This document shows positions 10,001 to 41,856 of a stretch of 64,000 bases of DNA, in pieces. The notes beneath the pieces are model-generated. The model saw only the letters and a program-made list of their open reading frames with translations. It did no database searches and was not told the origin of the DNA. Position numbers and translations under genes: made by a program. This DNA is from Antedon mediterranea (lineage: Eukaryota > Echinodermata > Crinoidea > Comatulida > Antedonidae). Position 1 is the first letter of the stretch. Every line of letters starts with the position of its first letter. The stretch is taken from the NCBI RefSeq assembly GCF_964355755.1, contig NC_092674.1, positions 10,855,001-10,919,000 of the forward strand. Reading direction: 5' to 3'.

Positions 10001-12278
10001 CTTGGTTTTCCACATGACATATTATCCGGAAATTAATAAATATTACATCGACAAAAGACAACATGACCATAAACCTCAAGCGCTCTTGTGGTTTTATTTC
10101 AATCATTCTTTCCTGATTCATTAAAACAAAATAATATACAGTCAGTTCAGTAGTAAACTAAATATACTGTATATGCGGTCAATATAGTAATGTCGAAAGG
10201 AAAGTTTTGAATTTAACAAAAAAACGTTAGTGTACACACACCAAACCAGAATCTAATGACTTATATGGTTCCTCAAATAAACATCTTTGCAATCAGGTTG
10301 TGTTGTCTGCACTAGAAAACTTTAACAATTTGCAAGAGTTTGGCAACTAAAGGCTGCATAAGTTTATACGATTTCTGTATATTTGTTTTTCCGTACTTGG
10401 CCGAAGTTTGTCAACAGGTCTACAACTTTGAAACACTTGTCTTGTCAAACTCGAGATTGATAGCAAACTTTACCAAACCTTTGTCTACACTGGTACACTG
10501 ACGTCTATGCTATTTGATTCACAAACCTGAAGGTTGCCAAAGTTTGTAAAAAAACTAATGGTCTACACTAGTAAATTTTGGTAATATTCTTTCTAAACTC
10601 AAACAAACAAAAATTCAGTTTTCCTAGACTAGGCTTAGATTATTTTAATGTGAAAAATAGAAAATATTATTCTATATTATTTACAGATAAATATGAAAAC
10701 GCTGGTGAAATTAAGATGTCATTAAGAAGATGTTCACAGAGAAATCTAGGTTGTTCACACGGCTGTGCGCTGACGTCAAAAGGGTCAGTCTGTGTCTGTC
10801 CATACGGGTTCTCACTGAGTTTCGATAGAAGGACTTGCCTAGGTAAGTAAACAAGATCCCTCTGTGGTTTGAGGTTCAGTAGTTGTGCATTGACGTCTAA
10901 AGAGTCAGTCTGTGTCTGTCCATAAAGGTTCTCAATGAGTGTCGATAGAAGGACTTGCCTAGGTAAGTAAACAAGATCCCTCTGGGGTTTGAGGTTCAGT
11001 AGTTGTGCACTGACGTCAAAGGGATCAGGCTGTGTCTGGCCATACGGGTTCTCAATGAGTGTCAACAGAAGGACTTGCCCAGGTATGTAAACAAGATCCC
11101 TCTGGGGTTTGAGGTTTAGTTAAAAGGATCAGTCTGTGTCTGTACATATGGTTTCGCAATGATTGCAAACATACTTGCCAAGCTAGGCAAGTAAACAAGA
11201 TCTCTGGAGTCTGAGGTTTAGTAGTTGTGCACTGACTTCAAAGTGATCAGTATTTGGTCTATCCATACTAAGTGTTCTCTATGAGTGCCAACAGACGCAC
11301 ACATTTTTCTTGATAAGTAAACACGATTCCTCTGAAGTCTGAGGTTCACTACATAGTCGCTCAACAAGCTCAATTCCCGCTATGACACAACTCAAGGACG
11401 TATGCAAAGTAGTTTGACCAGAGACGACCCCCTGGTTTGACCAATCACAAGCGACATTTTGAATGAAGTAACCAATATTGTTCGCCTTTACTTACACATT
11501 GGCACTTTCTATCAAATTGGGTTTAGTTGGCATTTTGGTTTTAAATGTTTTAATTGTTGTAGCACCCTCTATTGTTTTGCCACTTTTTCATAAATTCTCA
11601 AGTCTAAACTTTAGTGTTTCTTCTCAAGTTGTGACCTTCTGGAAAATGAATCCATTGTTTTACACTCCCTTTCTCTTTTTCAATTATGTAGAAGTAAGCA
11701 AGACCTGTTTAGTGCCAACTGAAAGTTTTGTGCTTGGTTCTGAAGGCTCAGATCATAGCAAAGAAAAACAAAAGAGGCGATGCCGAAACAAAAAGAGGTG
11801 TAGAACTACAACAGCAAGGCCAACACTATCACCAACAACGCAACCATTACCAGTAACCATGCATAATGATGAACCTCAATCAGGGATATCTACAAACACT
11901 CCATCTCAGTCATATGGTATGAGAAATAAAGTTATTTAATAATTCATTTTCAATATTATTTACTTTAGATATTGTTTATAATTATGGAAGATATATACTT
12001 ATCTATAAATTACCTATAAATCTCAAAGTTCTTTTACAAAATAAATAATATTCTCTTTAACTACACTGGAAATATATACTTATATAAATAATTTGATTAA
12101 AATTAATAAATTAATTTAAAACTTTATTGTTACACATTATAATGCAGAAAACATTTAAATATGTAAACAAATAAAATAACAAATAACAAAACAAAAATTT
12201 GATAATAATATTAATTTATAATGTTCATCTATATAAGCAATTTCATATACTATATACTGGGCATAAGTTGAGAACTCC

Positions 12279-12309
<31 letters not shown>

Positions 12310-13523
12310 TATTAACCTTCAACTATCAATATATGCACACTATGAATAAACTAAAACTAAATTCAAGTGGCAAACCCAAATCATCGACAACATAACACCC
12401 AACCCTCACACCTACTACATTTCTGCAAATGCAATGCAATAGATAAAACATTACGTTCATCACTCAATTTAACAATTTTTAGAAACCCTGGACACACTGT
12501 TTTAAATTTTCCTCTGACTAATAAGTGATAACAGATTCCCCATCTAAACAATTAGATTTAGTCTGCATTAAGTACTGAAATATCGTCTTCAATAACTTAT
12601 AACATACTTAAAAATATATTACACTAACTACCATACAATGCATTTTTAGTTACTTATAACCAATTTTATATTAATCATATTTTCATCTAGAATGTGGAAG
12701 ACCAGTTTTCGATCAAGTAGAAAAAATTCTAATGAAAAATAAACAATGGACGCCAGCCCTAGACACCATACAGAAAAGTTCACCTAATTTACAAGCAGCC
12801 AATGGTCATCTGGCAATTAAGGGGTCATCGCCATGGATTGTTCAACTTTGGCACACTAAATTTGTACAAATGATATGTGCAGGGGTACTATTGAATCGTC
12901 ACTGGGTACTAACCGCAGCTCATTGCATCCACACAACAAACGGAACCAAGCAGACATTGCGAGTACAACTGGGAGATCATGACTTGGAATTACCAGAGGT
13001 TGGTCAAAGAACGTACAATATCCGAGAGGTCATAGTTCATGAAAACTTCAATAATGACACTTTCGATAATGATATTGTACTTTTAAAGATAGAGGGCAGT
13101 ATTGACTATTCAAATTTCATCATCCCTTGCTGTTTGCCAGAATTAAACGAACATGAACTAGAATTATTTAATTCTGGAGAATTTGGAAAGGTTGTCGGAT
13201 GGGGAAAACTTTCGCAAAACGGACCGTACCCACGATATTTAAATGAGATTCAATTGCCAATTGTATCACAAAAAATATGTAGGGAATCAACCTCGTATCC
13301 TGTAACAGATAATATGTTTTGTGCTGGAAATGGTCGGGCTAAAGGACCAGATGCGTGTACAGGGGACAGTGGCGCCCCCTTAACTATAAATGACGGAAGT
13401 GCAGCATATCTTATAGGGATTGTAAGCTGGGGAGAAGGGTGCGGTAATGAGGGCAAATATGGGTTCTATACCAGAATAAGTAACTACTACAGTTGGTTGG
13501 AGCAACATATGGGACCCTTATAG
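7031..13523 (+). CDS. Secreted EGF + trypsin-like serine protease, non-canonical activation site
   Basis: Exons are 7031-7118, 10687-10842, 11692-11916 and 12691-13523. All introns are phase 1 and GT-AG, giving 433 residues. Exon 1 encodes a signal peptide (MSITSITVLLLVASFARA). Exon 2 is one EGF domain with six cysteines. Exon 3 is a basic patch (RRCRNKKRCR) plus a Thr/Pro/Ser-rich linker. Exon 4 starts with a Cys (ECGRP) and encodes an S1 protease. His57 lies in TAAHC, Asp102 in DNDIVLL, Ser195 in GDSGAP, and Asp189 in DACTGDSG gives trypsin-like specificity. Overall it resembles the vertebrate factor VII/X/protein C catalytic chain but has no Gla domain. The usual R|IVGG is replaced by Q|AANG, so trypsin-type zymogen cleavage is not expected there. 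Additional small exons in the 3.5-kb intron 1 cannot be excluded. Confidence 0.8.
7119..10686. other. Intron 1 of the EGF-protease gene
   Basis: This is an AT-rich intron. No additional cysteine-rich exon with phase-1 boundaries was recognised. It contains a hairpin element at 9321-9415. Confidence 0.5.
9321..9415. repeat. Small inverted-repeat (MITE-like) hairpin
   Basis: The left arm (GGACGTGCAACGCAAG, then ATTTTGACCAATCACAA) pairs imperfectly with the right arm (TTGTGATTGGTAAAATTATT, then GCGC...GTCC). A related segment (GGACGTATGCAAAG, then GACCAATCACAAGC) is at about 11395-11455. Confidence 0.55.
10765..11352 (+). repeat. Tandem array derived from the EGF exon 3' end and its donor site
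   Basis: Five units start at about 10772 (the true exon), 10892, 11012, 11121 and 11233, with a period near 120 bp. Each unit carries the second half of the EGF exon plus the start of the intron (AGGTAAGTAAACAAGATCCC). Similarity falls from left to right. The unit at 10892 has a stop codon after VCVCP, and the unit at 11012 has one EGF cysteine changed to Trp. The downstream units look like decayed pseudo-exons. Confidence 0.8.
11917..12690. other. Intron 3 of the EGF-protease gene
   Basis: This intron is very AT-rich with TTA/ATT-rich simple sequence around 12270-12315. No gene or transposon signature was seen. Confidence 0.5.
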
Positions 13524-13922
13524 ATGTAAATTCCAAAACACTTTAAATACATATTACTAAAACATTCATATTGTTTGTATTTTAAACGGTTGTTCTAAAT
13601 GTAATGTTAATAACTAGGTCTAAGTACTGTATGTTAGACCTTAACAAATAAGTTTGAAAGGCAGGAAGAACTTTTTTGTTTCTTTAAAAAAAATGTTTAT
13701 GTATAGAAAATCAGCATCTGTATTGTATTGTAAGTTGCCATACTTTTTTTTCCTGAATTTATTAATCTTATCAGTAATTGTAAAAATGATGGAGTGCTTC
13801 CACTGCTTAATAATTATTATATATTATATTATAATATTCAGTACACAAATAAATGTATGAAAATATTTTATATTTGTGTATATTTACAGCTAACTTACTA
13901 CACCCCATCATACTAAAAATAA

Positions 13923-16082
13923 CTAACCAATCCTTGGTGGCCGAGTGACGATGTTTTCTTGGTCAACAAATATTCGGACACGATTTGTAACAAAGTCTGC
14001 AGTTACTGCTGAATCAGCTGGTATAATATAAACCTGACGATGAAAAAAACAGTCAGTCATAAGAACAATGCATGGTGGATTATGATATCATTTTATTTCC
14101 TATGTTTAATAAACTGTAAAAATTGCAGTTACTGATTATTACTGATTTTCCTGTATGCTGTTTGACCCTTAGTGTAAATATGTACTGTACCACTAGCCCA
14201 CTCGATAATAATTCACTATATAAACTACAGTAGCTTAAATGTAATAGGCCTAAAATGATTTATTTAAAAATGTAAATGTATGAGCATAACATGTTTCTCG
14301 CAGACTAACTGAGCTGAATTGCGCAAGTGTGGGCTGTGTACACAACAGTACTCATGTCTTTTAAATTAAACAGGACAGGGGATGAGAGGGACCAGTACAC
14401 TAGGGTAACAATACCTACCCTTCCAAAAGATGCACTGGGTTCACGCGTTACATTGTGTACATTTATGATGTTGACAGAACGTAATTGTTTTATGAGAACT
14501 TTGATCCAAAATTTCCAACTATTTCATTCAAAATCTAAAAACGTCACAGGAAACAAACATTTTTTTTTTATGGTTTGTGGTTACAATATAATATTAACAT
14601 ATTTAAAATTTGCTTATCTTATCTAACAATTTTCTATGAATCTAAATTGCCAAATATTTGTTTAAAAAAATAGAATTTTGGGAATATGTCATTTAATTTT
14701 GATTGATTTATAATCTGTATTTTGGCATCTGCAATGGGCCTCTCTTCTGCGTTGTAAAGAAACTCACTCATGTTGATAAAAACAATTTATAATCAAAATG
14801 ATTAGCCTATTATTTTTTCCCAATGAATAAAGAATACTACTGTAGCCCCACAAAAGCATACTCTATATTTAGCAGATGTCTCCATTTAGAAAAATTAAAT
14901 ATAGGCGTATCCAACTTGTATTTTTTTAGGAGATCTACTCCTTGACTCCAGCAGTTTTAGGAGTTTTTTGGAAGCGACCAGTTGAATATGCATATTAGAC
15001 TCTGAAGGAGGGCGCTATTATAAAAAATATCAGGTATAAGTATCTATAGTAAACAATTGTTTTACAGTTTTTCCATTAAGTACTTATTTAACGGAGTATT
15101 TTGAGCGTTGAGATTGTTCTTAACGAAAAACCTTGCGTTGTCAACGTTTTCTATTTGAATGACTTTCTGTTGAGCACAAATTTACAATTCGAATACAAAA
15201 AGTACTCAACGAATCTTTATGTTAACAACGAAAGTTCCCATTCGGAGCTTTCTAACATAATGTCAATATGAAAGAAATCTAGTAATAGAGCATCAATTTA
15301 TGCTATATCTTGATATATTTTAGTATATCCAAAAAAAAAAAGAATTGATAATAATCTCGCAATTTATATTGAGAAACTTAGAAGAAAGAAAAAAAAGAGA
15401 GTTACCTTTAAGTTTGGATAATCATTAAGTATTTGACTTCTTGCTACATCACCTGTCTGTGGAAAAAAACATGCATTTTTTATTGTACTATAATAACACA
15501 CAAATTTATAACTTAAAGTTGCAATAACGTATAACGTAATTATTTTACCGTTCCATGCACTATAGAACACAAGGGATTTCCATATAATATATGTGGAGGC
15601 CTTTTAAAATACCGTAGGCCTCAGTATATTATTTTAAACTAATCTAATTGCTACTAAAACAAGGTAGCAAATAGACAAACACTGTATCCAAAATACAAAT
15701 TATAGTCTAGATACACCTGACATTTTATGTACAGAATTATTTAGAAAATCTTTAGTTTTTTTTGTTTATCCAGTAGAACCTCTGTTATGGGGGGGGGGGG
15801 GGGTTACATCAAAGTGTCCCCTTAATAGGAGTGTCCCCTGAATGTACAAATGTAAGTTTGAAATAATATAATAAAATTCATTCGTGGAATACCTCTCTGA
15901 CAACCAGAATTACCCCAACAAGTCTGTGATTAAAACTGCTGTGATGAAAATATACATACCTCTCCAACTAACTCTGGCCATTCTGTTTGCCGACCTCCTC
16001 CACTACAACAACAGTAAGATATGTCTATATGTATCACAACAAGTAAGTACAAAAACAAAAGGCGTATCTGTAACCTCATCAT
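13923..16082 (-). CDS. Secreted serine-protease inhibitor, potato inhibitor I (CI-2/eglin) family, copy 1, P1 Ala
   Basis: Three minus-strand exons, 16082-15960, 15456-15406 and 14033-13923 (phases 0 and 0), give 94 residues. The ATG at 16082 follows an in-frame TGA at once, and a second Met follows. Exon 1 encodes a hydrophobic signal (MMRLQIRLLFLYLLVVIHI) and EWPELVGE, the conserved start of this fold. Exon 2 is the helix (ARSQILNDYPNLK). Exon 3 holds the reactive loop and core: VYIIPADSAVTA|DFVTNRVRIFVD, ending RPPRIG. By alignment with eglin c (Leu45-Asp46) the P1-P1' pair is Ala-Asp, and the loop-supporting arginines (NRVR) are kept. Ala at P1 suggests an elastase- or subtilisin-like target. 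It is convergent with the EGF-protease gene, whose stop lies 400 bp away. The exons are short and are linked by the common structure shared with the gene at 19613-23545. Confidence 0.85.
14034..15405. other. Intron 2 of inhibitor copy 1
   Basis: No coding content was recognised. It contains one copy of the CGTTGAGTACTTTTT inverted-repeat family at 15066-15240. Confidence 0.45.
15066..15240 (-). mobile_element. MITE-like repeat, copy 1 (inverted relative to 24196-24362)
   Basis: The segment matches 24196-24362 on the opposite strand over roughly 150 bp, sharing ACTTTCTGTTGAGCACAAAT and AATTCGAATACAAAAAGTAC. The family carries CGTTGAGTACTTTTT near both ends in inverted orientation, which fits a MITE. 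Confidence 0.65.
15789..15845. repeat. Poly-G run and CAGTAGAACCTCT repeat fragment
   Basis: CAGTAGAACCTCT is followed by a long G run and GTGTCCCCTTAATAGG/GTGTCCCCTGAAT words. The same style of sequence forms the tandem array at 42090-42440. Confidence 0.45.
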
Positions 16083-16469
16083 AAACTCTCAGGTTGATCG
16101 TCAATTACTTGAGTGAAAATGCATTTGGATACGTAAAGGATCATCCAATGCTTACAAGTTTGTCTTCACTGCTGATGCAAAGAAGAAAAAAACAATGTGT
16201 TACACAATCTGGCGTAGATACTTTCAGGCAAGAGTGAGCAATCGATTGAGCGAAATGGGAATGTGTGAGTCTTTCAACCATTAAAAATTGCAACAATAAA
16301 CAAACGTTCAGATTACCGAGCGATTAAATTACAAGACTTATCTAGACTAGAATTATCATAACCAGTTTAATAGGTTTTTTATTCATACAAGAAATAAAAA
16401 TTCCAGAACTCGAAATTACAAACTTATTTTATAATCATGTATGATTCCACCAAACTTTCAAGTTAAAAT

Positions 16470-16828
16470 CACGATTGTGAGGCATTTCATGAATAGGCAA
16501 ACTGCCTTAAAATATCTTGATATGTTTTGAGAAACTATTCTCATCATCAGAACAGAAAACAACGCCTACCACATCACGTGGAGGAAACCTTCCTTGAACA
16601 AACAAATCTATAACTTAGGCGTCACGCTTGCCATACGATTGTTTGTTGTCCATGTTCCTTGGTTTTTTTTATCATGCTAATTACTTCCCATTTACATACA
16701 ACCTGTCATATTGGTATAAGTACTCTACTAGGCGTTGTTTTCTGTTCTGATGATGAGAATAGTTTCTTGAAATATATCAAAGACATTTTAAGGCAGTTTG
16801 CCTATTCATCAAATGCCTCACAATCGTT
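16470..16828. repeat. Large inverted repeat (about 100-bp arms)
   Basis: Arms 16470-16569 and 16729-16828 are reverse complements at about 90% identity (shared words TTCTGATGATGAGAATAGTT and GGCAGTTTGCCTATTCAT). The spacer is about 160 bp. It lies 0.4 kb upstream of the start of inhibitor copy 1. Confidence 0.8.
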
Positions 16829-18559
16829 ATTTTATAATACTTGTACTGTTAAGTTTATATTTGACTGCACCACACCACATTTAAGTGCCCCGTTCTAAAG
16901 GTGAAGTGTCTGAAATAAGTAAATAATTATAATAAACCCCGACGATACAAGCTTAAAACATAACTTGTTTTTACCCAAGGTTAAGAGATAGTATTTCTAA
17001 ATATACCAAAATGTAAAATTATGAATACGATTTTATTGCAAATTTTATTGCAGATTTTACCTGGTGATGGTAAGGATTTGAACTTGAATGTGCTATTTAA
17101 TCTGGGAAAGGAGTAACTACATGGATAAAATTAAATGAAATATAATTTCATACTTTGTTTTGAGGCAAATAAATATATAACGCTTTACAGTCTTTTAGTC
17201 TCGTTGGATATCATCTGAATAAACAGCATTCCATGAAAATTTAATTACTGAAAGCTAAACCACATCCAGGCAGAAGATAATTAATTGCTGTATTAAAGGA
17301 TGAAGTAAGGCAGCATATGACGCAACCCACTGCACATGTGATATCAAGTTTGTTGTTATTGTTATTTCAGCAGGGCTAGGGAATAGATTGTATTGGTTCT
17401 CGATGCTTTGTAGTAAACAGATACATTCAACACCAATTCAAGAATCAATTATCTTGTTACGTACACAACCGTTTATGAAAATAATCCTTGTTTTATTATT
17501 CAAAGAGTTTTACATTGCAACAAAACTCCAGAGCCACTCCAGAGTTTACATACAGGCACTGGCCTGTTTGGTGGGAATTTAAAAAAACAAATAATTCCAG
17601 AAGTATGTCTAATGTCTTATAGCGTGCATATTTTGAGGAAAACATTTCAGCATCATGGGGCAGTAGCATATAAACAATTTACTGAAAACTCAACTATTTA
17701 ATGTGATGTATTTTTTATTTTCAGTATATTGATATTAACACCGTGGTTTTTTTATCAGAAGGTGTATACATTTATGTTCTATATGCTAAAGCTACAAAAC
17801 AATATGTTCTTAGAATCAAGTTATTGTAATATTTTTATAGATGTTGATGCTTTTCTATTTTATTTATTCATTTATTTGAACTACCCTGTTTTATCGGTGG
17901 CAATCAACAACAATGCAATGTTTTTATGATACTGATTTAGTTTCTTTTCCAGAATAATGGACGAACATTGACCATGATCCACTCTATTAAAATAGCAAAT
18001 CCAAATTACAGTATTTGTCACCAAACAAACCTACAGACTCTAATCTTTCTATCAGAGAACAATTTTAAGTTAAGTCTGGATAAACAAGATGAGATAACTA
18101 TATATGATATTGTCAATATTTATTGAGGTTTGAAACATCCACTTACGTGTCACCAGTACCGATTAGTTCAGACTTCATGGCGAATGGATGTAGACGATTA
18201 AAGTGATAACATTCTACTGTACCACATTGAGAATCATTGCTATCCAATCAGATTTTAACGTACGAAGAAAAGGGCCTGTTCAGACATAACATGGAGTTAT
18301 GCCTTCATATCGACGCGGCATACAATTCAATAGGTCTGAACCAGAAAAAGATTAGTGGAAGCCATCTCCTACGGCAGTGATCTTTTGTACAAGAATAGTG
18401 TGACACTTATGATACGAAAGTTATGCATCAATGACTGCCCACCAAAATCAAATTTACTCTTACTGTACATACCAGATGTTATGTGACCTTGCTAGAGATG
18501 AAACGAATCTGAACGTACCAAGAGTAGGCTGTTGGCTGTAAATTTTTTCAGTCTCACAG

Positions 18560-18700
18560 ACTTTACCTGGCCCTGCGGTTTATAGTCGTTATCTGAGAAG
18601 AGTTGTTAACCATGAAGCGAGTGAGCCTCGAACCCTTGTCGATATTATGGCTATGTATTAAGGTTCCTCTGTCTTAATCGCTCAGTCACTCACCTGCAAG
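18560..18700 (-). mobile_element. tRNA-derived SINE, copy C (head only)
   Basis: The segment matches the head half of the SINE at 37258-37586, sharing CGGTTTATAGTC, GAGTGAGCCTCGAACCC (box B, minus) and CTGTCTTAATCGCTCAGTCA (box A region). It is more diverged than copies A and B and lacks the body. Confidence 0.65.
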
Positions 18701-19612
18701 TCTCCACCAATCACAGCGTCCCTTTCTCTTACCTAGGCCCATTAAATACATTTGGGTCACCAACCCGAAAGTTAAATAACACTTTTTTCAAACAGATTAA
18801 CGATTATATTTGCCAATATAATTCTTGTGTGAGCCTTTAATTCAATTTGCATTGGTATTAGGAACAGCTTTCAAATTAAAACAAAAAGTCTGTTTTTGCA
18901 AAAACAAAACATTTATTCATACCACATTTTTATTATTGCAATCATCAATTGATTTTTAAAGAATAATCTAAAGAATCACTGACAAATTTAGTGTATAAAT
19001 TATAAATTCATAAAATAAAAATATAAGATTTAACAATTTAAAAAATCTATTATTAATTACAATTTGCAAAAGTTGGTTGTGTGTAAACTACAAATAATAT
19101 ATAATCTGCAACATTTCAGACATAAATGTTATTTTTGGTTTACCCACAATTCACTTTCCTATGAAAAACTAAACAAAATGTATTATTACATAATATCTAA
19201 TTCTTTGAAATTTCCATGTACTGTATAATAAAATTAGCACCCATTATCACTCTATTCAAAATTATATCCTTGTTGGTCCAATTATAATTATATCAAAATA
19301 TATCTGCTCAAAATTACACAATTGTATATAATTATTATCAATATATCTTATATTTCGTTATACTGTATGATCTAAAATAATCTAGTCTAGACTCTATTTG
19401 ATAGTTCCGTCAAGAATAATAATTCTTCCATGTACTTTTGTTATGAAATATATTGAGTGATTGATTGATTTAACGGTCAAGATTTCCCATGTAGCATTTG
19501 TATACAAATGTTGTTTGATTGTTTGGTTTAATATAGTTTATATAGTTATATAATCTTTAGTGTGAATTAAGAATATTTATAAATTCTTGTGCTGTCCACA
19601 GAGTGTTGATCT

Positions 19613-22600
19613 TTAACCGGTTTTCGGTGGACGAACAACAACTTGATTATCATCAACGAAGATTCTCACACGATCTTCTCTAAAGTCCATTGTCATCATG
19701 TCGTCTTTATTAAGAATGACAATCTTTAGAATAAATAAATGAAATGTCATAACAAAATACAAAGAACCTGGCTAAAAAAGGTTTGTTCTTGTTAATGACA
19801 TAGAAATAAGGAATGTTTGTTTGCTGAATTGTGAACATATTTCATGAGTTGGAATTTAACGAGAAGAAGCCGAGTTAAATGAGGTAGTCCAGACAAAATT
19901 GACAGATGGTTAGTAAATAACGTGGAGATAAAAAAGTTCTTGATTCATTAATTATTAATATTAAATCAATAATTATGTAAATCCAGATGTAGATAAATCA
20001 CTTTTGTGATAGCATACTATATATCAAAATGTGAATAAATGGTATGAAACAGCTTACTTCAGTATGCTAAAATTCTACAGTACTTCAATTGGACACCCTC
20101 ACTCACTTTTTAGACCTAATAATTGATTTTTAAGAGAAAAACTGTTCAAAATGATTTGTAATACTGACCTTCAGCTCTGGGCGTTCCTTAGAAATAAACT
20201 TCTGAGCTTCCTCACCTTTCTGTGAAAATTAAATTTGATTGAAATGAATGAATCCAGATCAAATGTCATACCATAGCTCTAAACCTAAACCCTAACCATT
20301 TGATTTTGATTTGATTTATTTTGGCATCAGTACATAAAATATCACAGACATACAATTAAAATTGGTAAATATAAAAATACCAAAATAAAACAAGGATGCC
20401 AAGGATAACTCATAAAAGTCCTCTACGGACTTGTTTCCAATGAGGTCCTTTGAAAGAACAGCAAAAAAGACAAACAAAGCAACATATAAAAAAACAAAAA
20501 ACAGCAAAAAGGACAATCGAAAAAAGAAGAAGCGCTAATTAAATAGTTTCTAGAGCTAGTGAACGTTCCTGTAGATACTTTTTAACTTTACTTTTAAAAC
20601 AATAAACAGTTTGTGATTCCTTAATGTTAATTGGTAAATTATTCCATTCTTTAATAGCATTGTAAAAAAAGGTCACATGTGCCATTGGCTTGATAGTTGG
20701 GATTCTAAAATTAAAATTGCATCCCCTAGTATTGTAATTATGACTGTCTGAAATTCTAATAAAACGATTGCATAAATAAGGTGGACAACAATGATTATAT
20801 ATTTTAAAAACATGACAGACTCTAAGAAATTCGACACGGTCTTGGACTTTTAACATACCAACATCGTTTAGCTGAGATTGACCAACATGAGATCGGGGAC
20901 CTAACTTTTTTATAAAACGAACCATTTTGTTTTGAGTCGTTTGTAATTTTGATTTTAAATTTTTATTTACCGTAGAAGACCATGAGCAAACCGAATAATC
21001 GAACATCAGTTGGATTAAAGCAAAACTAAGAATTTTGCGACAATGAGAATTAAGAAATGATGATTGTCGGTACAGAAATTTCAGTCTGCCGTTTGCTTTG
21101 TTTATAACAGAGCGGGCAATGACGTCACCTGATACATTTTGGTCAATCTCAATACCTAGATATTTGATAGATTTTGATCCATTTATAGTCGTTCCAAAGC
21201 AATCAATATAGAATTTGTTTACTTTGCTTAATCTACGTTTAGAACCAAACAGGATGCATTCGGTCTTACCCATATGAAGCGAAAGTTGATTGTCGATCAG
21301 CCAATTATTGCATGATACGAGATTGTTTTGGAGTTTAGATTGGATTGCGACTGGATCTTTATGGGAGTAAAAAATTGCACAATCGTCAGCGTACAAAACA
21401 ACTTTACAATCACTTTCGATACTTGATGGTAGGTCATTCACGTAAATAAGAAACAAGAGAGGACCCAAAAGGCTACCCTGGGGGACTCCACATACAATGT
21501 CAATAGAGTCCGATTTGGTACCTTTAATATCGACAATCTGATTTCGCCCAGACAGATACGCTTGAAACCAACCGATAGACCGGCATCCTACTGTAGATAC
21601 TTAAGTTTTTTACACAAAATATCATGATTGACCGAGTCAAAGGCCTTTTGGACATCGAGTAAAACCATACCCGTAAATAAACCATTTGACATTTGAACTC
21701 TAAGGTGATCTCTAAGATGGATAAGACATGTGTCGGTAGAAAAAACATTTCAAAATTGTAATCAACTTTTGGATGGATGTCGCACGCAAATTACAATATG
21801 CTGTCCTGAACATGGTTCTGCGTGCAATTGGAACACATAGTGTAACAAATGAACGTATGAATACAGACTGAGAACCTACTGTACGTTGGAAATAAAGAAA
21901 TAGGCCGGTTGGGTAGCTGAATGGGTAGTGCCTGGGTTTTGCAATGTAATGCTTTAGCATTAGGGTAGGGTTCGAAACTCATTGTTGGTCTTTTTTTGTT
22001 TTTTTTTTACTCACCATCTTCTTTATTGACCATATTGATCATCTTTTCTCACCATTTTCCTAAAGGGATGTTTTTTCTTTAGGTTACGAGGGCCATAGGC
22101 CCGATCGGGTCAATAGGCATAGATATAGAATCTAGCTTGGATCTACGACTAGACGTAGATGCATCCACTGCCTTTTAAAAATATGGGGTGGGGGGGAGAC
22201 AAGCTCCTAAAATAGGCCTATCCTTTTTTTACGGTCTTTGTTATTTGGTTATTTTCAGATTTAAAATGTTTACAATGCCCAGCACAAGAATATTACAGTG
22301 CGTATAATAGAGGTTTAGACTATGGATGGTGGTGACTTATTGTTTAGAAAACCTACTAACTAGCCAGCTAGCCTATGATGCATGTTAAATTAAATAGGCC
22401 TGTCACGATAAATATGGTCCGGGGCCAAAATCGGTCCGGCCGGACCAGTTTTGGTCACTGCCAAAATCGGTCCGGGCTTTTCTTCTGTCGATTTTAATTG
22501 AATTACTAACTGTTTTAAGTTGTTTTTATGGCTAGAAAAATATTCCATGATATAATAGTAAGTTTTATCTTGTCGGATAAATACTAAAAATAAATGTATT

Positions 22601-23545
22601 TTATCTAAAAACATGACTTAGGTGGGGTGTTCACTCATATTTCGGCCTGCCACACACTCACATGAACGGGTATATGAGACGCTGATATTGCCAGCTAGAT
22701 TTTATTTATGATTGAGGCCTTTTTCTTTCCTCAGCCTAATCAATATTGGATAATTGTTTTATAATAATTAATTGTATTGAATTGATATATTGATTGATTA
22801 ACCATAAATAATTAATAAATTTAATTGTTTTTAACATCATGGGGAAACGAAGATGTTAAAAAAGAACAAAATGGATTAAAAACAGGCAGAGATACATATT
22901 GTATACAAAAAGCCTAACAATTAGTACTAATTATTGATGAGTTACTACTAATTAATATTGATAATAAAAAAAACAGGCTTAATTTATAATATTAAAATAA
23001 CAAATAAAACCCCATAGTTTTCAATATAATGACTAATCATGGCCTTTTTTTTTAATGATATAGGCCTATACATTATGACTCATTTTGCACACCATTATTT
23101 GTAAGACCGGACCATATTTGGCGGCCAAAATTGGTCCGGCCGGACAGGTTTTTGGCAGCCATAAATGGTCCCCCGGACTGATTTTGGCAGCCAAAACTGG
23201 TCCGCCGGACCGATTTTGGCCCGGACTGATTTTGGTGTGACAGGCCTGCCTATAATGAGGAAAAGCAAATCTATAGGCATCCAATACATACAATGTGAGC
23301 CTACACATGCTTAGCTTTCTACAAATTCCTAGACTAACTAACTATATCTAATCTTGGGTAACAAATTTTATTACCTTTCCGACAAGAGATGGCCATTCAT
23401 TCGGCATATTTTCCGGCTTAATTTGAGTGTTCTCTGTCTCTAAACTAGGCTTATCCTCAGAAGTTGTGATTGCAGCTCTTTTGCAACAGGTAACCGATGA
23501 TGCGAGGAAGACTACACCTAAAACAACCACTAAAACCGATTTCAT
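19613..23545 (-). CDS. Secreted serine-protease inhibitor, potato inhibitor I (CI-2/eglin) family, copy 2, P1 Met
   Basis: Three minus-strand exons, 23545-23375, 20219-20169 and 19723-19613 (phases 0 and 0), give 110 residues. Exons 2 and 3 have exactly the same lengths (51 and 111 nt) as in copy 1. Exon 1 encodes a signal peptide (MKSVLVVVLGVVFLASSVTC), an acidic/Thr-rich spacer and EWPSLVGK. Exon 2 is AQKFISKERPELK. Exon 3 is IVILNKDDMMTM|DFREDRVRIFVD, ending RPPKTG. The reactive bond is Met-Asp by alignment with barley CI-2 (Met59-Glu60), and the stabilising arginines (DRVR) are present. This predicts inhibition of chymotrypsin-, elastase- or subtilisin-like enzymes outside the cell. The 3.1-kb intron 1 hosts a LINE and a hAT-like element. 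Confidence 0.87.
20290..21750 (-). mobile_element. 5'-truncated CR1/Jockey-type LINE with reverse transcriptase fragment
   Basis: The minus strand encodes the RT palm: DVQKAFDSVNHD (domain A; upstream part, separated by a frameshift/stop near 21590), GVPQGSLLGPLLFLIYVNDL and VVLYADDCAIF (catalytic YADD), then the thumb and a C-terminal tail ending at about 20539. The 3' end carries a short AAATC-type repeat tail (20297-20325). It begins at about 21750 inside the RT domain, so it is dead on arrival. It sits in intron 1 of inhibitor copy 2, in the same orientation. Confidence 0.85.
21900..21985 (+). mobile_element. tRNA-like SINE head
   Basis: A box A-like GTAGCTGAATGGGTAGTG and box B-like GGGTTCGAAACTC lie at tRNA-like spacing, followed by a T-rich run. 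A functional tRNA gene is unlikely because the acceptor stem does not close. A SINE head or tRNA pseudogene fits better. Confidence 0.5.
22396..23247. mobile_element. hAT-like non-autonomous element with CCGGACC-rich ends
   Basis: The ends are AGGCCTGTCAC (22396) and its inverse GTGACAGGCCT (23247). Both subterminal regions are loaded with GGTCCGGCCGGACC-type words in an otherwise AT-rich region. The interior has no transposase frame. No clear 8-bp target duplication was seen, so the hAT assignment rests on the termini only. Confidence 0.6.
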
Positions 23546-25352
23546 TGTGTGAATAGATGAATAGCTACCAGCAAGAGTATACAGTCAAGACAAAGCAAAT
23601 AATGAATTACTTACCAGCAAATATACACAAAATATGATAAAGGAAATGAATAAATAATACCGCAAACCCACTATCCACTAATCACACCTGTTTACAGTGT
23701 AAAGGTCGATGTTGATGTGTTTTCTGCTCTTATTTATTACAGCACCCCCTCTATATTTTTCTTCAATGAACATTTTCACGCTGCTGCTGCTCTTATCTAG
23801 CCCGCTACGTCACAAGGGATGACTCATTTATAAGCTGAAAGCAAGCAGCAGTTATAGTACTAGAGGCTGACGTTTTTGCTAATTTGTAAACTCAACTATA
23901 ATTTATAGATACCAGCTGCTGGACTAAAAAAACTATGGGAAAAGAGAGTCTATGAGGGCTCCAAGGTTGAACGATTTTGGATTCTCGCGCTTTGATTTGT
24001 TGAACAGACTGGAAAGAATTTTCTCACTTGAAGCAAAGAATATAATATCACTCTTTGCTTGAAGTCACGTTGTCTCAAGAGCGTATTCAGTTGCATGCCT
24101 TGAGGTCACAAACACACAGTGCATTAAAGTTCAAAATTTACCATTTTTAAATGGGCACGTGATTCATAATTAAAGAACTTGTCGCATTTGTATTCGATTG
24201 TCAACGTAAAGATTCGTTGAGTACTTTTTGTATTCGAATTGTAAATTTGTGCTCAACAGAAAGTCATTCGAATAGAAAACGTTGACAAAACGAAAGCTTT
24301 TTTGTTAACAATCTCAACGCTCAAAATACTCCGTTGTTAAAAAGTACTCAACGGAAAAACTACTCACCGGTCCACTCGAATACGACATTATTTGTATGTA
24401 TTTTTGGGATTAAAGGACATCTTTTTAATAATTAATCATAAATATATCTGAAGAAAGAACAATTTTAAAAAGTCGAGCAGCGTTTTTTGTAAGAAATATT
24501 TCTTGTTTGAATTCCGATCCTTCTAACACAACACAAAGTGTCATCCACATGACCACATTTTCTTTTTATAATAAAATAATGCTTTATTCAGAGACTTGCG
24601 ATTTATACTAAACTAAAAACTAAAATTGATAAATATATCTATTAATATAATATAATAATATTATAAGCTCTCCCAATACCACGGGCACGTACCGCTGTGG
24701 TCTCAACTGGTCTATGTCGATGATTCTGGTATTTTTCGATAATGGTAAACATGAATTTGGGACCTTTTGAACCTCAAGAAAAGTCAGCTGGTTTTCTGAG
24801 AATCCGGCACGTTGGACTAATAAGTGTCTACTTTGATGAAGGTTACATGGAAATAAATCATTGGTTACAGCTTGCTACAACCTGTAATAGTTATAATAAA
24901 ACCAAAGTAATGTTGCTATAAAATAACTAGCTCATCTGTCTTTTTATGTGCTAGCTTTATTAAAAAGCACCAATTACTTTATTATTACGTTTGAAATGCA
25001 AATGTCATATCATAATTGAAAGCAAAAAGAATGGTGGGTACGTAATAGTAATGATGGAAAAATCACAATCGCATGTTACACACGTGGTCAAGCGCCCTCT
25101 ATAGCAAAATTGCTCAGTCATCCATGACATGTAAACAAACAAAAAAGTCTTTTCGGGCCCTGGATCACGCCATACGACGGCGACTTGATAGGGCAAAAGG
25201 AATTTCACAGAAGATCTATTATATAATTTTCAATGGTTCCAATTTCTCGGAAAACTCTAGCAAATATCGTAGTTAAAAGTTGGTTTAGGTTTCCAATTAC
25301 GCATCGTCAATCTTGTGATCTTTTTCCTGTTTCTTGTGAGCTTTCAGCCAAA
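23546..25352. other. Divergent intergenic region between inhibitor copy 2 and EPHX2
   Basis: It probably holds the promoters of both genes. It contains the MITE-like copy at 24196-24362. No further coding exon was recognised, and no confident TATA or initiator was assigned. Confidence 0.45.
24196..24362 (+). mobile_element. MITE-like repeat, copy 2
   Basis: This is the inverted copy of 15066-15240. CGTTGAGTACTTTTTGTATT near the left end pairs with AAAAAGTACTCAACGG at the right end, giving terminal inverted repeats. Confidence 0.65.
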
Positions 25353-28300
25353 ATGATGTCGAGTCATGTAAAAAAAGCGGTTGTATTTGATATGGGAGGT
25401 GTGATAGTAGAACAGCCACAAATTGGTCTTAAAAGATATACAGAAAGCCTAGGATTTCCAGGGTAACAGAATGGTTGTCACATTTTTACAAATTAACTTT
25501 TTTTCTGGGAACCTTGTCGTAAAGTTTTAAACTTATATAGGTTTCCTTCCACACATACTATGTTTTTATTAATTACTATCAAACTTGTTAATATATAATT
25601 ATTAATATTATGTATGTATGTATTTTTAATATATGTGTGGAGACTATTATTGAATAAACGAATAAACCAATACTAGTATATATACAAGCCATGGCCTGGT
25701 CATCCAAATGTTAGTCAAATGAATGGCATCTGACACTATTTTTGTAAAATAGTACCCTGGTTTAGAAGGCATTTATAATTTGAAAATCGCTGTGTATTCG
25801 CCTTCATCCTTCATAGTAGTGTGAAGACTAGTGAAATCAAGGTTTAATAAAGTTTCAGGTTAAGCCCTATTTTCCACTAGGTCTCCAAATTTATTCATGC
25901 GAATTTAAAGTGTCAGTTTATTATGATAATCCTTGGCTAAAGACATAAAATACAAAATAAATAAATAAAATATGAGCATATTATTATTATGTGTCTATTT
26001 ACTACAATTGTAAGAAATGCACAACCAATCAGAGCTTCAAAATTTGCTCTGTCAGGTGCACCACAATTTTTCCCGCTCAAATATCTAATGCTATTACTGC
26101 TAAAAACGGCCTGACACGTGTTACCAGAATTTGGAATAACTTTACCCAGTGAAATCCGCAACTTAAATATTTATGTTAGTTCTTTTAAAACCAAATTACT
26201 TAATTATCTCAATATTTATTTTTTAAATAATTTTGATATTGAAAATGTGTGTAGTTGGTCGCTTTCTTGTCGATGCTTTTATTGTAGAACGTAATTTATT
26301 TACTTTTCTCTGTTCTGGGTTGACCAACTAGCATAGGTGTTTAGCACCTGTTTGGTCTTTCCGTGCCTCCTTTTATAATTGTTTTGTCTTCTTATGTTTA
26401 TGGCAGAAATTGAATAAATAAATAAAAATAAAAAATATAATTTATTCTAATTCTAATAATTCAGATTCTTTTTGGAGAGTGTTATGATTCGAGGACGTCC
26501 TGACAATTCTTTTTGCCGACTGGAAAGAGGCGAATTATCAACATCACAAGTAAGATACAGTAAAAGTAAACAATAATATAATGTACCAGTGTACCAACTT
26601 CTGAGAGGAAAATAGTGCTACACTATACAGTATAAATAATAAACTATTTTACAGTCAACCGGGCATGCAAGTTTCTCACAACCACAGTCGAGCAAAAGCC
26701 CCATGGCACACCTATATAACTGTTGATCACAGGGGTTAACTGTGTATCTAATGCCTTGTCTTCCATCACTTTAATTCTGTTGTCTTATCGGCACACAGAA
26801 CTAGATAGAGAACTTTACATTAGATAAATAATAATAATAAGCCTGTAGCCAGAATAAAACTAAGCTAATTAAGCATATTTATCATTACCTTTTTCTATTG
26901 GTCTCTAGCTTGAAAAAGATATGTTTGTTAAAACCTTCAAACCCCCTGGCTATGTGTGACCATTTGTATGTCACTTCTGTGAATTTATGTTGCTTTCTTT
27001 CTTTACAAATAGTTTTTCAAGAAATTTGAGGATGAATGCCAAGAAGCAGCAAATGCTGAAGGCCTCACAATTCCATCAAGTTTCTCAGCAGAATCAATGT
27101 GGAGGGAGATGATGGGTGCTAAACCGGTTCCCTCAATGTTAAAGGCAGTTGCAGCTTTAAAACAAGCAGGTAACCATAGAAACACACAATTTTTGTTCAA
27201 TATTGGAACCATTTATTTTTATTTTTCTTTGTGAGTGTGCAACTGAAGATAAAATTGGTTTTACACTAGTGTAGTACAGTATTGATTAATTATTGGATTT
27301 TAGCAAATTAGTATGTTCATGTGAACGGCGTGAGGGTCTAAATACACCTCCAATTATCAATACTTAGCTACTGACAAGAAGAAAATTTTGCAGGTTTGAT
27401 TCTGATTTTTGGTCCTGTTATAATCTAAAAAAAAAATTAAAATTTTACAAATATTACGTTAAAATATACAGTAATAAAATATAAAATACAATATAAATCT
27501 AGTTAATTATTATTGAACTAAAATTTAGGACTCAATTTGATTTTTTTTTCTTGTCAGTGCAAACAATCTTGTTACCATCCATCTATTTTATAAAAAACAA
27601 TTACTTTCTTCAATTATGTAAAAGGTCTTGTTTTAAGGAATAACAAGATTACTATTTTCATAATTGACAGATTGAAAGATGTCAAATAAATAAAATACTC
27701 CAAGCTATAATAAGATACTGACAGATGGCACACGCCTTAATAATATTGTCGAAGAGATTATCAAGTCATCAACTTTCTTGAAAATCAATAGCCACGGTCT
27801 GTTGGTATATAAGTACCTATTTGCAAAACAAATTCAGAATAATAAAAATGAAAATGATGTTAAAGTTAATAAACCTAGTGTACCAAAAGATTTTAGACCA
27901 ATTGCAATTACTTCAAATTTAATGAAATGCTTAGAAAGGTTGATTGTTTCTAGACTTAAGGAAAATATTGGTAATGCAGATAAGAATCAATTTGCATACA
28001 AGAAAAATAGAGGGGTTGACGATGCTGTTAATTCTTATCTCCATGCATATCATCACCTTGATTCAAAAAGAAATTATGTACGGTCTATATTTTTCGATTT
28101 CTCCAGTGCTTTTAATACTATTTTACCACATGTTTTAATTGATAGATTATTAAGTTTTAATGTCTCACCTCAGCTCGCCAAAGTTATATATAGTTTTTTG
28201 ATTAATAGACCGCAGATGGTTAAGTGCAATGGTATCCTATCCAACAAAGAATCTACCAGTGTTGGAGCTCCTCAAGGATGTGTTATCTCTCCATTTTTGT

Positions 28301-31300
28301 TCTCTTTTTATTCTAGTAGTTTTTATATTTTAAGTAAAGATTGCAATATTGTAAAATACGCTGACGATACTGTAATTAGTGGTTTTCTTTGCGATAGTAA
28401 GCATAATGTAAATGAATTTGTTAATGAAGTTGGAAGATTTGTTAATTGGTGTGAAGATATGAACTTAATACTTAATATTACTAAAACCAAAGAGATGATA
28501 ATAGATTTTCGTAAAACCGCAGTTGAACATAATGTAATAACTATTAAAGAAACCGAGATTGAAAGAGTAACCCAATACAAATACTTAGGTACTATAATTG
28601 ACAACAAATTAAAATGGGAGTCAAACTCTCTCATGATTTCCAAGAAGGCATCTCAAAGGCTCTACTTTCTCAGAAAACTCAAGCAAATTAGAGTTGATAA
28701 CACTATTTTAATTCTATTTTATCAAAGTATTATTCAAAGTATTTTATCTTTTAGCATTGGATGTTTTTATGGTAACTTTACTGAAAATGATAAGAAAAAT
28801 ATTGAGAGACCACGTAAAATTGCACAACGTATTATTAAAGCTGATCTAACGCCTTGTTCATTTATCTATGAAAAGAGTATTCTAAAAAAAGTAAACAATA
28901 TTATGAAAGACCCCACTCATCCGTTACATTACTGTTATAACTTAAATAGATCAGGCATTAGGCTACGACCTCCAAGAGCAAATCTTTGTAGAACTAGAAA
29001 ATCCTTCGTTGTAAATAGCATTCATATTTTTAATTCTAATGTAAGACGTTAATGCAATTTTTAATAGTATTTTTAACTTTTTATCTTGTATTTTTAATCT
29101 GTTATAATACTGCACGTTTTTAAATTGTTGCAATACTGTTGTTTTAATCTACCAAGCAAAGTGAATTTCCATTTTTATGGACAAATAAAATTTCTTGAAT
29201 CTTGAATCTTGAATCTTGAAAATGTACTTTTTACTAATTAAAAATGTGGAAAATACAATGCAAAATTACAGATTTCAGGAATATCTCCTATCCCATCAAC
29301 TGTACGGTATTTCTGGTTGATTTTGTTTGTTTTGTACAGTATGTTACAATTTATGGATGTACCATCTGAAATAAAATAAATGAATGAATTATGAATTACA
29401 GTATGGTAATAATAATAATAACATTTTGTTCGCATTAAAGATGTATTGTCCCCCAAAAACATAAAAAATGAAGATTAATTAAATCAGACTTTGAATAATG
29501 TTATTTTGTAGTTTTAATAAAGTTAATCACTTCCATAGCAAAAAAAATGGAAAAAAATAATGTTTTCACTTATTTATAAAATGACAAAATAAATTCAACC
29601 AAAAATCCATTGGCTGGCAGCCAATTTGACCATTTTTTGCTTTAAATTACAGTTTTTTCAGTTAAAATACATTTTTTTCAATCCAATTTTTGGTCAAAGT
29701 GAATAACTATTATGTTACATTAAAATGGCATATTCAACACAAAATTGTTTAACTTAATTTATTAATAGGTTTGAAGACATGTGTTCTTACAAATAATTTT
29801 ATCGATGACATGGCAAGAAACAACCATCATGCTCAGTTCATGGCAACCACACTAAGGAATTCGTTTGACGAAGTAATTGAATCATGCAGAGTTGGTCTTA
29901 GCAAACCAGACCCTGAGATCTTCAAACTTACGTGTGAAAAGTTGCAAGTGAAACCTTCCGAGGTACAAGATTTAGAATTTAGTAAATACTTTCTTTTTAG
30001 CACTAAAATGGTTGATGCCATTGTGGTTAATCTGTAGGTCTAAAACCATTACATTTTGATTAAATATTTTTAATTATGTTTTAATTGATATTAGGCTGTA
30101 TTTCTTGATGATATTGGACAAAACTTGAAACCAGCAAAAGAGCTTGGTTTTCACACAATACTGGTGCGTGATGTGGACAAAGCTTTAACTGAGCTAAAGG
30201 AAGCTACTGGAGTTGATGTATGTAAAAAAGGTTACAGATCAAAGTTCATTTAAATATAATCATTTAAATTAAACATGCATTGGCCAGGCACACCTTACCG
30301 GTGACAGCGTTTTAATATTGATTTTGTCTATTACATTGTATATTTTTATATTCTCTTTTATGTTTTTGTCGAAATGGCTGTAGTGTTATATGACACATAA
30401 TGGGAAGTAATATAAAATTAATTTGTTTCGATTGTACTTTCACCTATTATTTATTCGTCAAAGTGATTGTATTTTTTATTGTATGCAATGTAATTACATT
30501 TTTTATCCTATTCTTGCGGTATACAGAACTGTACCCACAAAATGTGACCCACCGAACACAGTACTTGAAGGCAAAGAAACAATCATACGGGCAAAAGCCT
30601 CATTTTGTTTTACTTATTTATTCCTTAATTGGTCAGATGTTTTGCCCTACTCTGACGTAATTTGAGTACATTTGAGAATAAAATAAAATAAAAATTTGCA
30701 AGTAATTGTCGGGTGGCACTCGAACCCATAACCTCCAGATCACTAGCCTGGCGTTCATACCTCTAGATCACTAAGCTTGCGCTGGTGGCTAGTGGTTAGA
30801 TTCGAGCCCAAATAAGCAGCGGGTACTACATCAGAGTAGGGAAAAACATCTGACCAATTACGCTACTCCACAGTACAGTAGTTTAATACAATTACAACCC
30901 TATTTATTCTTTCTTTATGATACTGTATATACACCTTCAATACTAGTGTATAAAGTGGTACAGCTTCAGATTTACAATAAAAACAAATCATAAAAATCTA
31001 AAAGTAATACAATATTAAAAGTATTAATATAAAAGGGTAAAGCAGACAAATTGTTGAGCCATTTGGCCAGTACTATGCCACACATGTACATTAATATTAC
31101 TTTAACATCATTATTGTCATCAGCCTGAATTACATTAAAAAAAGCGAACTATAAACTGTATCCAAATTTCTTTTTTTTTAGGTTTTCAAAGAGCCTAGGC
31201 CAATAGCTGTACAGCCAAATAAAGTGGTTCACTGCAATGCTCAGCTGAAAAAAGGCATTCGCATTCATTACGTCGATTATGGAACTGGCCCACCGGTGAT

Positions 31301-39819: not shown

Positions 39820-41856
39820 CTATAACCGGTCAACCAGTTGCGTTAATTGGTCCTGAGCTGACATTGCCCCTAAATCTTGATCTCCCTGTTGGCCTAACGT
39901 TGGGTTTGCAGCAGGACTTTGTAACTGATTCATGCCCGCAGCTTGTGCTATCATGCTCTGGTCAGTTTGCATGGCATCGGGGCCAACACCGCCAGGGTGT
40001 GGTGAATGTGTTTGTGATGCGGGGTGGGGAGATTGCTGTGCAGAATGCGTCCTTGGCGAAGGCACCGGTTGAGATTGCGGCCTCGGTGGAGGATTCGGAG
40101 ACCGCACCTGCCCCAGTGAATTCGCTGCGGTGGCCATTGTTTGGGGCGACCTGACTTGTTGCATAACTTGTTGGGGCGATCGACCCCCTATCATTGGTTG
40201 TTGATTTGGCACCATACCCTTTGTCTGATTTTGCATTTGCTGATTTTGTATCATTTGGATATGAAGATTATTGGTACCTTGCATGTTAACATTGTTACTT
40301 TGTTGCTGCTGCTGCTGCTGTTGTTGCTGTTGGTGCTGTAACTGTTGCTGCAACATGAGCAGTTGCTGCTGCTGTTGGTTGCGTCTTTGTTGCAGCTGTG
40401 CTTGGTTAAATTGATTCATTTGATTGCTTTGTTGAGCCTGCATCTGTTGTGCTTGCATTTGTTGCATCTGAGGTTGCATCTGTGGCTGCTGCATCTGCTG
40501 TGCCTGAATCTGGTTCTGTTGAGTTAACCTAGCCTGCAACAACCTCTGCTGCTGCTGTTGTCGCAACCACTGTTGTTGCCTCTGCTGCTGTTGCTGCTGC
40601 TGTTGTTGCTGCTGTTGCACTTGTTGCTGTTGTACTTGTTGTGGGAATTGTTGTTGACCTGGTTGTTGCTGTGGCATGTTTTGTTGTTGCTGTTGTTGCT
40701 GTTGTTGATTTTGCTGAGACCTCTTTATAAAAGCTGCCATAAGCAATGGATTGGATTTCAGGAGGGTCATCACTTGTTTTTGTTGTTGAGGTGATGAAGG
40801 TGATTTTAAAGTTTGAAGAAGTTGCTGCAAAAGTTGCGGTGAAAAACCGGGTCGTTGTTGAATACCAGCCCCTGGCATGTTAGGCTGCATTGCACCTCCT
40901 AGACGTACATTTGGCGAATTCTGAATAGCTTGCATGGTCTGCATACCAGCCATGTTTGGATTAGGCATGTGTTGTTGCCAGTCCATTTGCATCATTGGAT
41001 TCGGTGCAGCTTGGTTCTTCATTGCAAGCTGTTGCTGCATGGTAAACTGCATTGGTTGTTGCGGTTGCTGCTGCTGCTGTTGAGGAGGTGGTTGTTGTTG
41101 TGGAGTAGTCATCTGCGACATGTGACCACCAAGTTGATTTTGCATCGGTTTCCCTGTCGACCTCATTGCGTTGGGAAATCGCATAGAACCTCTAGCTGCT
41201 GCTTCCTGTACTTCGTGAGCAGCCCTGATTGCACCAACTGGCGGAACCAGTTGGGGTTTCATACCAGGCTGCGGAGTCATGCTTGAGTGTTGCGATTGTT
41301 CTTGGTGAGTAATTGCAGGCGTTGGTTTTGATGCCACCTCTTGGCTGGATTGCATGCCACCTGGCGATGGTTTCGGAACCTGTGGTTGGCTAGACACTCC
41401 AGCAGGGGCAGTTTGTTGCTGCATAGCAGCCATACGACGGCGCAACATTTGCGCTTGCTCAAGTCTCTGTTGCAACTGTTGCTGCCGTAATTTGTGCTTA
41501 ATATTCACACAGAATGGCACAGGGCATTTCTGCTCAGAACAATGTTTTGCATGGTAACAACACAGCGCAATAAGCTGTTTGCATATCGGACAGCCTCCAT
41601 TCGTTTTCCTTTTGCAGCTTTTTGTATGTTGCACAACTCGCTTCATTTTCTGGCAACTTGCCATTCGACAATTAGCGTCGCGACACTGGCAAGCATGAAC
41701 CAATGATTGGATACATCGACGAATAGACTCTTTTCGTGCATCCTGTGGGTTTCGCATACCACCTTTTCCTCCATCCACATCAATTTCAAGACCCCATTTC
41801 TCCATTTTGTGTTCATGTCCAAGTCTTTGGTAACAAGGTACACACAGATCATAATC
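39820..41856 (-). CDS. CREBBP: CBP/p300 last exon: end of ZZ, TAZ2, NCBD, poly-Gln tail
   Basis: This single 2,037-nt exon encodes 678 residues. It opens with [18 protein letters not shown], completing the ZZ zinc finger. TAZ2 follows at about 41740-41420 ([57 protein letters not shown]) with its Cys/His zinc ligands. The NCBD, the IRF3/ACTR-binding helices, is at about 40870-40725 ([20 protein letters not shown], then [14 protein letters not shown]). Long CAG/CAA-encoded Gln tracts at 40715-40660, 40640-40540 and 40330-40290 follow. CAA interruptions should slow repeat expansion. The stop is at 39820-39822. Confidence 0.95.

Follow-up and report, generated by a model that had tools for sequence, protein, structure and literature searches.

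A tandem pair of crinoid genes predicted to encode secreted single-domain inhibitors of the potato inhibitor I family

The window analysed here, a stretch of 64 kb of crinoid DNA, contains two neighbouring genes, copy 1 and copy 2, whose predicted products are, judged by their sequences, members of the potato inhibitor I family (PF00280, MEROPS I13) of the CI-2/eglin type. We hold with considerable confidence that the two genes are an old pair in tandem and encode predicted secreted single-domain I13 inhibitors, likely to act on serine proteases by the standard mechanism. As new members of an established inhibitor family, they have the common gene structure that would be expected.

The initial annotation proposed two potato inhibitor I-type genes in tandem in an animal, and the profile match, extending over nearly the whole domain, bears this out; the domains of both are intact. 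The spliced products, 94 aa for copy 1 and 110 aa for copy 2, score 80.3 bits (1.6e-22) over positions 2–64 of the 64 of PF00280 and 81.6 bits (6.6e-23) over positions 3–64, respectively, with the cut-off at 24.5 bits. At E ≤ 0.001, copy 1 matches 53 distinct PDB sequences, the top one being trypsin inhibitor V (1e-12), and copy 2 matches 52, headed by CI-2 (3.5e-14). The matches include many CI-2 variants, trypsin inhibitor V, eglin c and other inhibitors of the family. Both domains align with CI-2 and trypsin inhibitor V over 62 columns with no gaps, and in this four-sequence alignment the residues W3, P4, L6, V7, G8, A14, I18, P23, T37, R44, V45, R46, V49, P59 and G62 are invariant. An origin of the PF00280 and PDB matches in chance short exons is ruled out by the scores.

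Both genes are on the minus strand, head to tail, with three exons each (Table 1). Coordinates, exon lengths and products agree with those of the initial annotation, exons 2 and 3 having the same lengths in both copies. All four introns are of the GT-AG type and in phase 0, and their positions, after domain columns 9 and 26, are common to the copies. The identical exon plan, which had been singled out earlier, is thus seen in both genes, but it is no separate curiosity, since a tandem duplication leaves exactly such a trace. In copy 1 the first ATG stands right after the opening of its frame (ORF 15930-16088). Poly(A)-like signals are found 160 (copy 1) and 81 (copy 2) bases downstream of the stop codons, which is weak evidence in AT-rich DNA; the GC content of the window is 33.7%. 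It was also suggested that automatic annotation may miss copy 1 because of its short exons. This is doubtful, as in a six-frame scan its exon 3 by itself scores 43.6 bits, above the PF00280 cut-off of 24.5.

Table 1. Exons of the two inhibitor genes and other protein-coding features with profile matches (positions in the window; the slash marks the presumed cut bond).
Feature	Position	Strand	Details
EGF-like frame upstream of the protease	10575-10847	+	PF14670, 35.4 bits (cut-off 33.4)
S1 serine protease frame, outside the pair	12675..13523	+	PF00089, 206.7 bits
Copy 1 exon 3	13923..14033	-	111 nt including stop; reactive site VTA/DF
Copy 1 exon 2	15406..15456	-	51 nt, TGDVARSQILNDYPNLK; acceptor CACAG, donor GTAACT
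Copy 1 exon 1	15960..16082	-	123 nt; start codon and hydrophobic leader, followed by Cys-Cys-Cys and the domain residues TEWPELVGE; donor GTATGT
Copy 2 exon 3	19613..19723	-	111 nt including stop; reactive site MTM/DF
Copy 2 exon 2	20169..20219	-	51 nt, KGEEAQKFISKERPELK; acceptor CACAG, donor GTCAGT
Reverse-transcriptase fragment in intron 1 of copy 2	20539..21600	-	PF00078, 68 bits
Copy 2 exon 1	23375..23545	-	171 nt; start codon and hydrophobic leader, followed by Cys-Cys, a spacer and NEWPSLVGK; donor GTAATA

The profile search of the 354-Mb genome gave two candidates, both of which were scored and correspond to the third exons of copy 1 and copy 2. The protein search of the genome yielded the same two exons, a count that diverged copies, gaps or stretches withheld from the searched sequence could make too low. 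Scanned for motifs in all six frames, the window has the WP.LVG pattern in the two genes only; the RVR pattern turns up there as well and at one other place, 51792, an occurrence judged unrelated.

The copies have an identical residue at 29 of the 61 aligned codons (47%) and differ at 27, 19 and 38 of the 61 first, second and third codon positions, respectively. By the Nei-Gojobori method dN is 0.55, whereas dS, at 2.1, is close to saturation. These values fit purifying selection, although two sequences cannot show present constraint on both genes. The tandem duplication looks old, since the copies resemble each other about as much as they resemble members from plants (two sequences, 40–47% identical) and Streptomyces (four sequences, 44–49%). 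Their paralogy is argued by the tandem position and the two common intron positions more than by identity. Comparison of positions 13400-17500 with 19000-24500 by blastn produced only two pieces, a dispersed repeat and a weak match of the first introns (42 bases, 76%, E 0.005).

In a profile search, the two chains of the hydrolysed inhibitor 1hym cover columns 1–38 and 39–62. Since the chains part there, the scissile bond is placed between columns 38 and 39. With this placement and the alignment, P1-P1' is Ala-Asp in copy 1 and Met-Asp in copy 2, as had been read initially. Each domain has a single reactive-site loop with Thr at P2 (column 37), Ala or Met at P1 (column 38) and an acidic P1' residue, D39. 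The two copies, like CI-2 and trypsin inhibitor V, have Arg at columns 44 and 46 (P6' and P8'); in this family two Arg brace the reactive loop from the core, and R44 and R46 would do so here. At P3', Val in copy 1 stands in place of the Arg of the other three aligned sequences, and hence the loop of copy 1 may be held less firmly. The VTA loop of copy 1 has a parallel in the CI-2 chain of 1tm5, which reads VTAEY in the alignment.

By analogy with the family, the likeliest function of both copies would be standard-mechanism inhibition of secreted serine proteases. In the standard (Laskowski) mechanism, the rigid exposed loop would enter the active site of the protease like a substrate and stay held there. 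Copy 2, with P1 Met, would be expected to act on chymotrypsin- or subtilisin-like enzymes, as does CI-2, and copy 1, with P1 Ala, could prefer elastase- or subtilisin-like ones. Secreted proteases of the animal itself, or else microbial ones, might be the targets. The short exon 1 of copy 1, its three adjacent Cys and the absence of Arg at P3' would also suit a different situation, in which one gene of the pair, copy 1 being the likelier candidate, is decaying or no longer inhibits and retains some other role. We consider this improbable: in copy 1 the frame, the splice sites and the residues at P2, P1', P6' and P8' are intact, the Pfam score reaches 80 bits, and a duplicate free of constraint should have had its frame disrupted by the time dS comes near 2. 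We retain inhibition as the predicted function of both products, if expressed.

Secretion is suggested by the hydrophobic leaders, whose best 11-residue mean hydropathy is 2.8 in copy 1 and 3.5 in copy 2. The initial annotation described the first exons and the leaders as diverged, and the tblastx comparison of the two gene regions concurs. Exon 3 of one gene is paired with that of the other, as are the WP.LVG ends of the two first exons, whereas exon 2 and the leaders stay unpaired; all other pieces fall in the dispersed repeat or in introns.

The single slightly unusual point is the adjacent Cys just before the domain in both copies. Cys residues occur only at positions 24-26 of copy 1 and 20-21 of copy 2, all of them ahead of the domain and near the likely boundary of the leader. 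Neither domain contains Cys, and so both are devoid of an internal disulfide, as are eglin and CI-2. It is conceivable, but very unlikely, that these Cys form inter-chain links, yielding a covalent homo- or heterodimer with two different reactive sites (Ala, Met), which would make a two-headed echinoderm I13 inhibitor. The mature proteins of both copies may start with adjacent Cys, right where the leader ends, although the domains themselves have diverged to less than half identical residues.

The frame of an S1 serine protease and copy 1 are arranged tail to tail, with 399 bases between their ends. Among the 305 PDB matches of the protease, the best 60 are thrombin and protein C chains. The catalytic triad is kept, as seen by eye, and in the alignment the protease has Asp189 in common with thrombin. 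Its activation region, LQAANGHLAIKG, aligned by eye outside the stretch covered by phmmer, is not of the Arg-Ile-Val-Gly-Gly type, and GDSGAP is found in place of GDSGGP. Judging from these residues, activation of the protease may be unusual or may not occur. Upstream, the EGF-like frame is followed by about three imperfect tandem copies discerned by eye (10687-11150, plus strand), the first of which has an in-frame stop.

The adjacency of copy 1 to an S1 protease domain invites the suggestion that the adjoining protease is the cis partner for whose control both inhibitors, or copy 1 at the least, evolved. We give little credence to this suggestion, as Asp189 predicts cleavage after Arg or Lys, which fits poorly with P1 Ala or Met, and neighbourhood by itself is no proof. 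Hence the neighbour is a poor predicted target of the copies.

The remainder of the window contains repeats and parts of other genes. The dispersed repeat lies at 15066-15232, in intron 2 of copy 1, with an inverted copy at 24193-24361, upstream of copy 2; it has at least 42 matches in the genome at 93–100%, the query itself included (40 of the 333 candidates were scored). Between the two genes, at 16464-16834, there are nested inverted repeats with 55- and 52-nt arms that are 95% and 94% complementary, respectively, resembling a MITE. A 452-aa frame at 27694-29049 on the plus strand has PF00078 reverse-transcriptase and ALKBH8_N matches, and is probably an element of the non-LTR type. A CBP/p300-type gene with TAZ, CREB-binding, ZZ and bromodomain frames occupies 39820-55622 on the minus strand, and its domains are in keeping with an animal genome. 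On the same strand, at 53860-54798, a 17-codon unit repeated in tandem produces an open frame of 312 codons. Searches of the 64-kb window for Rfam families and for tRNAs gave zero matches each.

A search of the assembly for mitochondrial COX1 gave no match, and the Hox cluster of the same genome was considered instead. The homeodomain search gave at least 104 matches (150 of 163 candidates scored). Sixteen of the 104 were examined, and twelve of them lie on one contig, C2, within about 0.38 Mb. From inspection by eye, we take these twelve to be Hox1 to Hox8, Hox9/10 and Hox11/13a, b and c. Hox4 and Hox6 would then be present, and Hox11/13b and Hox11/13c would be face to face, about 47 kb from the run of ten genes; another homeodomain match is located 34 kb past Hox11/13c.

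For the feather star Anneissia japonica, a ten-gene run from Hox1 to Hox11/13a and face-to-face Hox11/13b and c are reported, unlike hemichordates, the two posterior genes being separated from the ten by over 360 kb (PMC7351957). The same paper lists 33.22% GC, to which the 33.7% of the window comes near, and an estimated size of 553 Mb, and names Hox11/13d and e as an echinoderm trait (PMC7351957). An intact Hox cluster is also mentioned for sea cucumbers (PMC11310086). We take the cluster found here to point to a crinoid, though one distinct from A. japonica in view of the spacing of the posterior genes and the genome size.

The inhibitor family was initially characterised as well known in plants and leeches. 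This is correct as far as it goes, but leaves out bacteria. Five of the 72,556 plasmid records carry family members, all of them from Streptomyces; they are annotated as 'serine protease inhibitor' and are 40–45% identical to copy 1. As to the patchy record in other animals that was also proposed, few papers in the open-licence literature came up under the family name, while public annotations of several marine invertebrates include members. Among the titles and abstract openings listed from that literature, none concerned a family member from a crinoid or another echinoderm.

The four aligned Streptomyces members are as similar to the copies as the copies are to each other, and the acquisition of both genes by horizontal transfer from bacteria, as opposed to descent within animals, has to be considered. 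We regard it as very unlikely. Both copies have introns, and the two plant members reach a likewise high identity; in so short and conserved a domain, identity gives no order of the plant, bacterial and animal groups. Scans of prokaryote contigs, whose reach is limited to close relatives, confirmed none of 156 candidates for the copy 1 domain and none of 278 for the CI-2 domain, and the profile search of 14 control prokaryote genomes gave no matches. The contig scans are too narrow to show absence, because the plasmids gave five members.

A scan of viral sequences with copy 2 confirmed two of 16 candidate stretches, neither of which is accepted as a relative. In the first (L001), the match comes only from a stretch resembling a signal peptide and from PENMPNEW, a peptide alike by chance, and no Pfam family matches this piece; the second (L002) has match statistics equal to those of the first and was rejected too.

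The pair is a well-resolved, intron-bearing example of I13 genes in a crinoid and helps to ask whether animals inherited the family vertically. Its two phase-0 intron positions may be compared with those in other animals and in plants; otherwise, this is routine annotation.

Among the known inhibitors, barley CI-2 (2ci2), a plant protein, resembles the copies over the whole domain, with 45% identity to copy 2 and 40% to copy 1. Its P1 residue, Met, is the same as in copy 2, whereas its P1' residue is Glu rather than the Asp of both copies. Pumpkin trypsin inhibitor V (1tin, 1hym) is also similar over the whole domain, being 47% identical to copy 1 and 44% to copy 2, but it has Lys at P1 and a Cys in the loop (column 42) that both copies lack. 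Multiplication in tandem is seen in plants as well: for tomato, 20 potato inhibitor I members are reported, some of them in tandem (PMC7017114). The Streptomyces plasmid members (e.g. WP_330294187.1) again match the whole domain, and their loop reads VTMDF. Their annotated frames are 64–72 residues long, with no leader visible by eye and with Asn at P3'. Finally, the leech eglin c, with P1 Leu, is an animal member of the same family, and yet among the PDB matches it is more weakly similar to both copies (best E 1.6e-9 with copy 1, 1.3e-4 with copy 2) than are CI-2 and trypsin inhibitor V. According to PMC7191736, leech eglins are I13 inhibitors that lack Cys and act on neutrophil elastases and cathepsins G.
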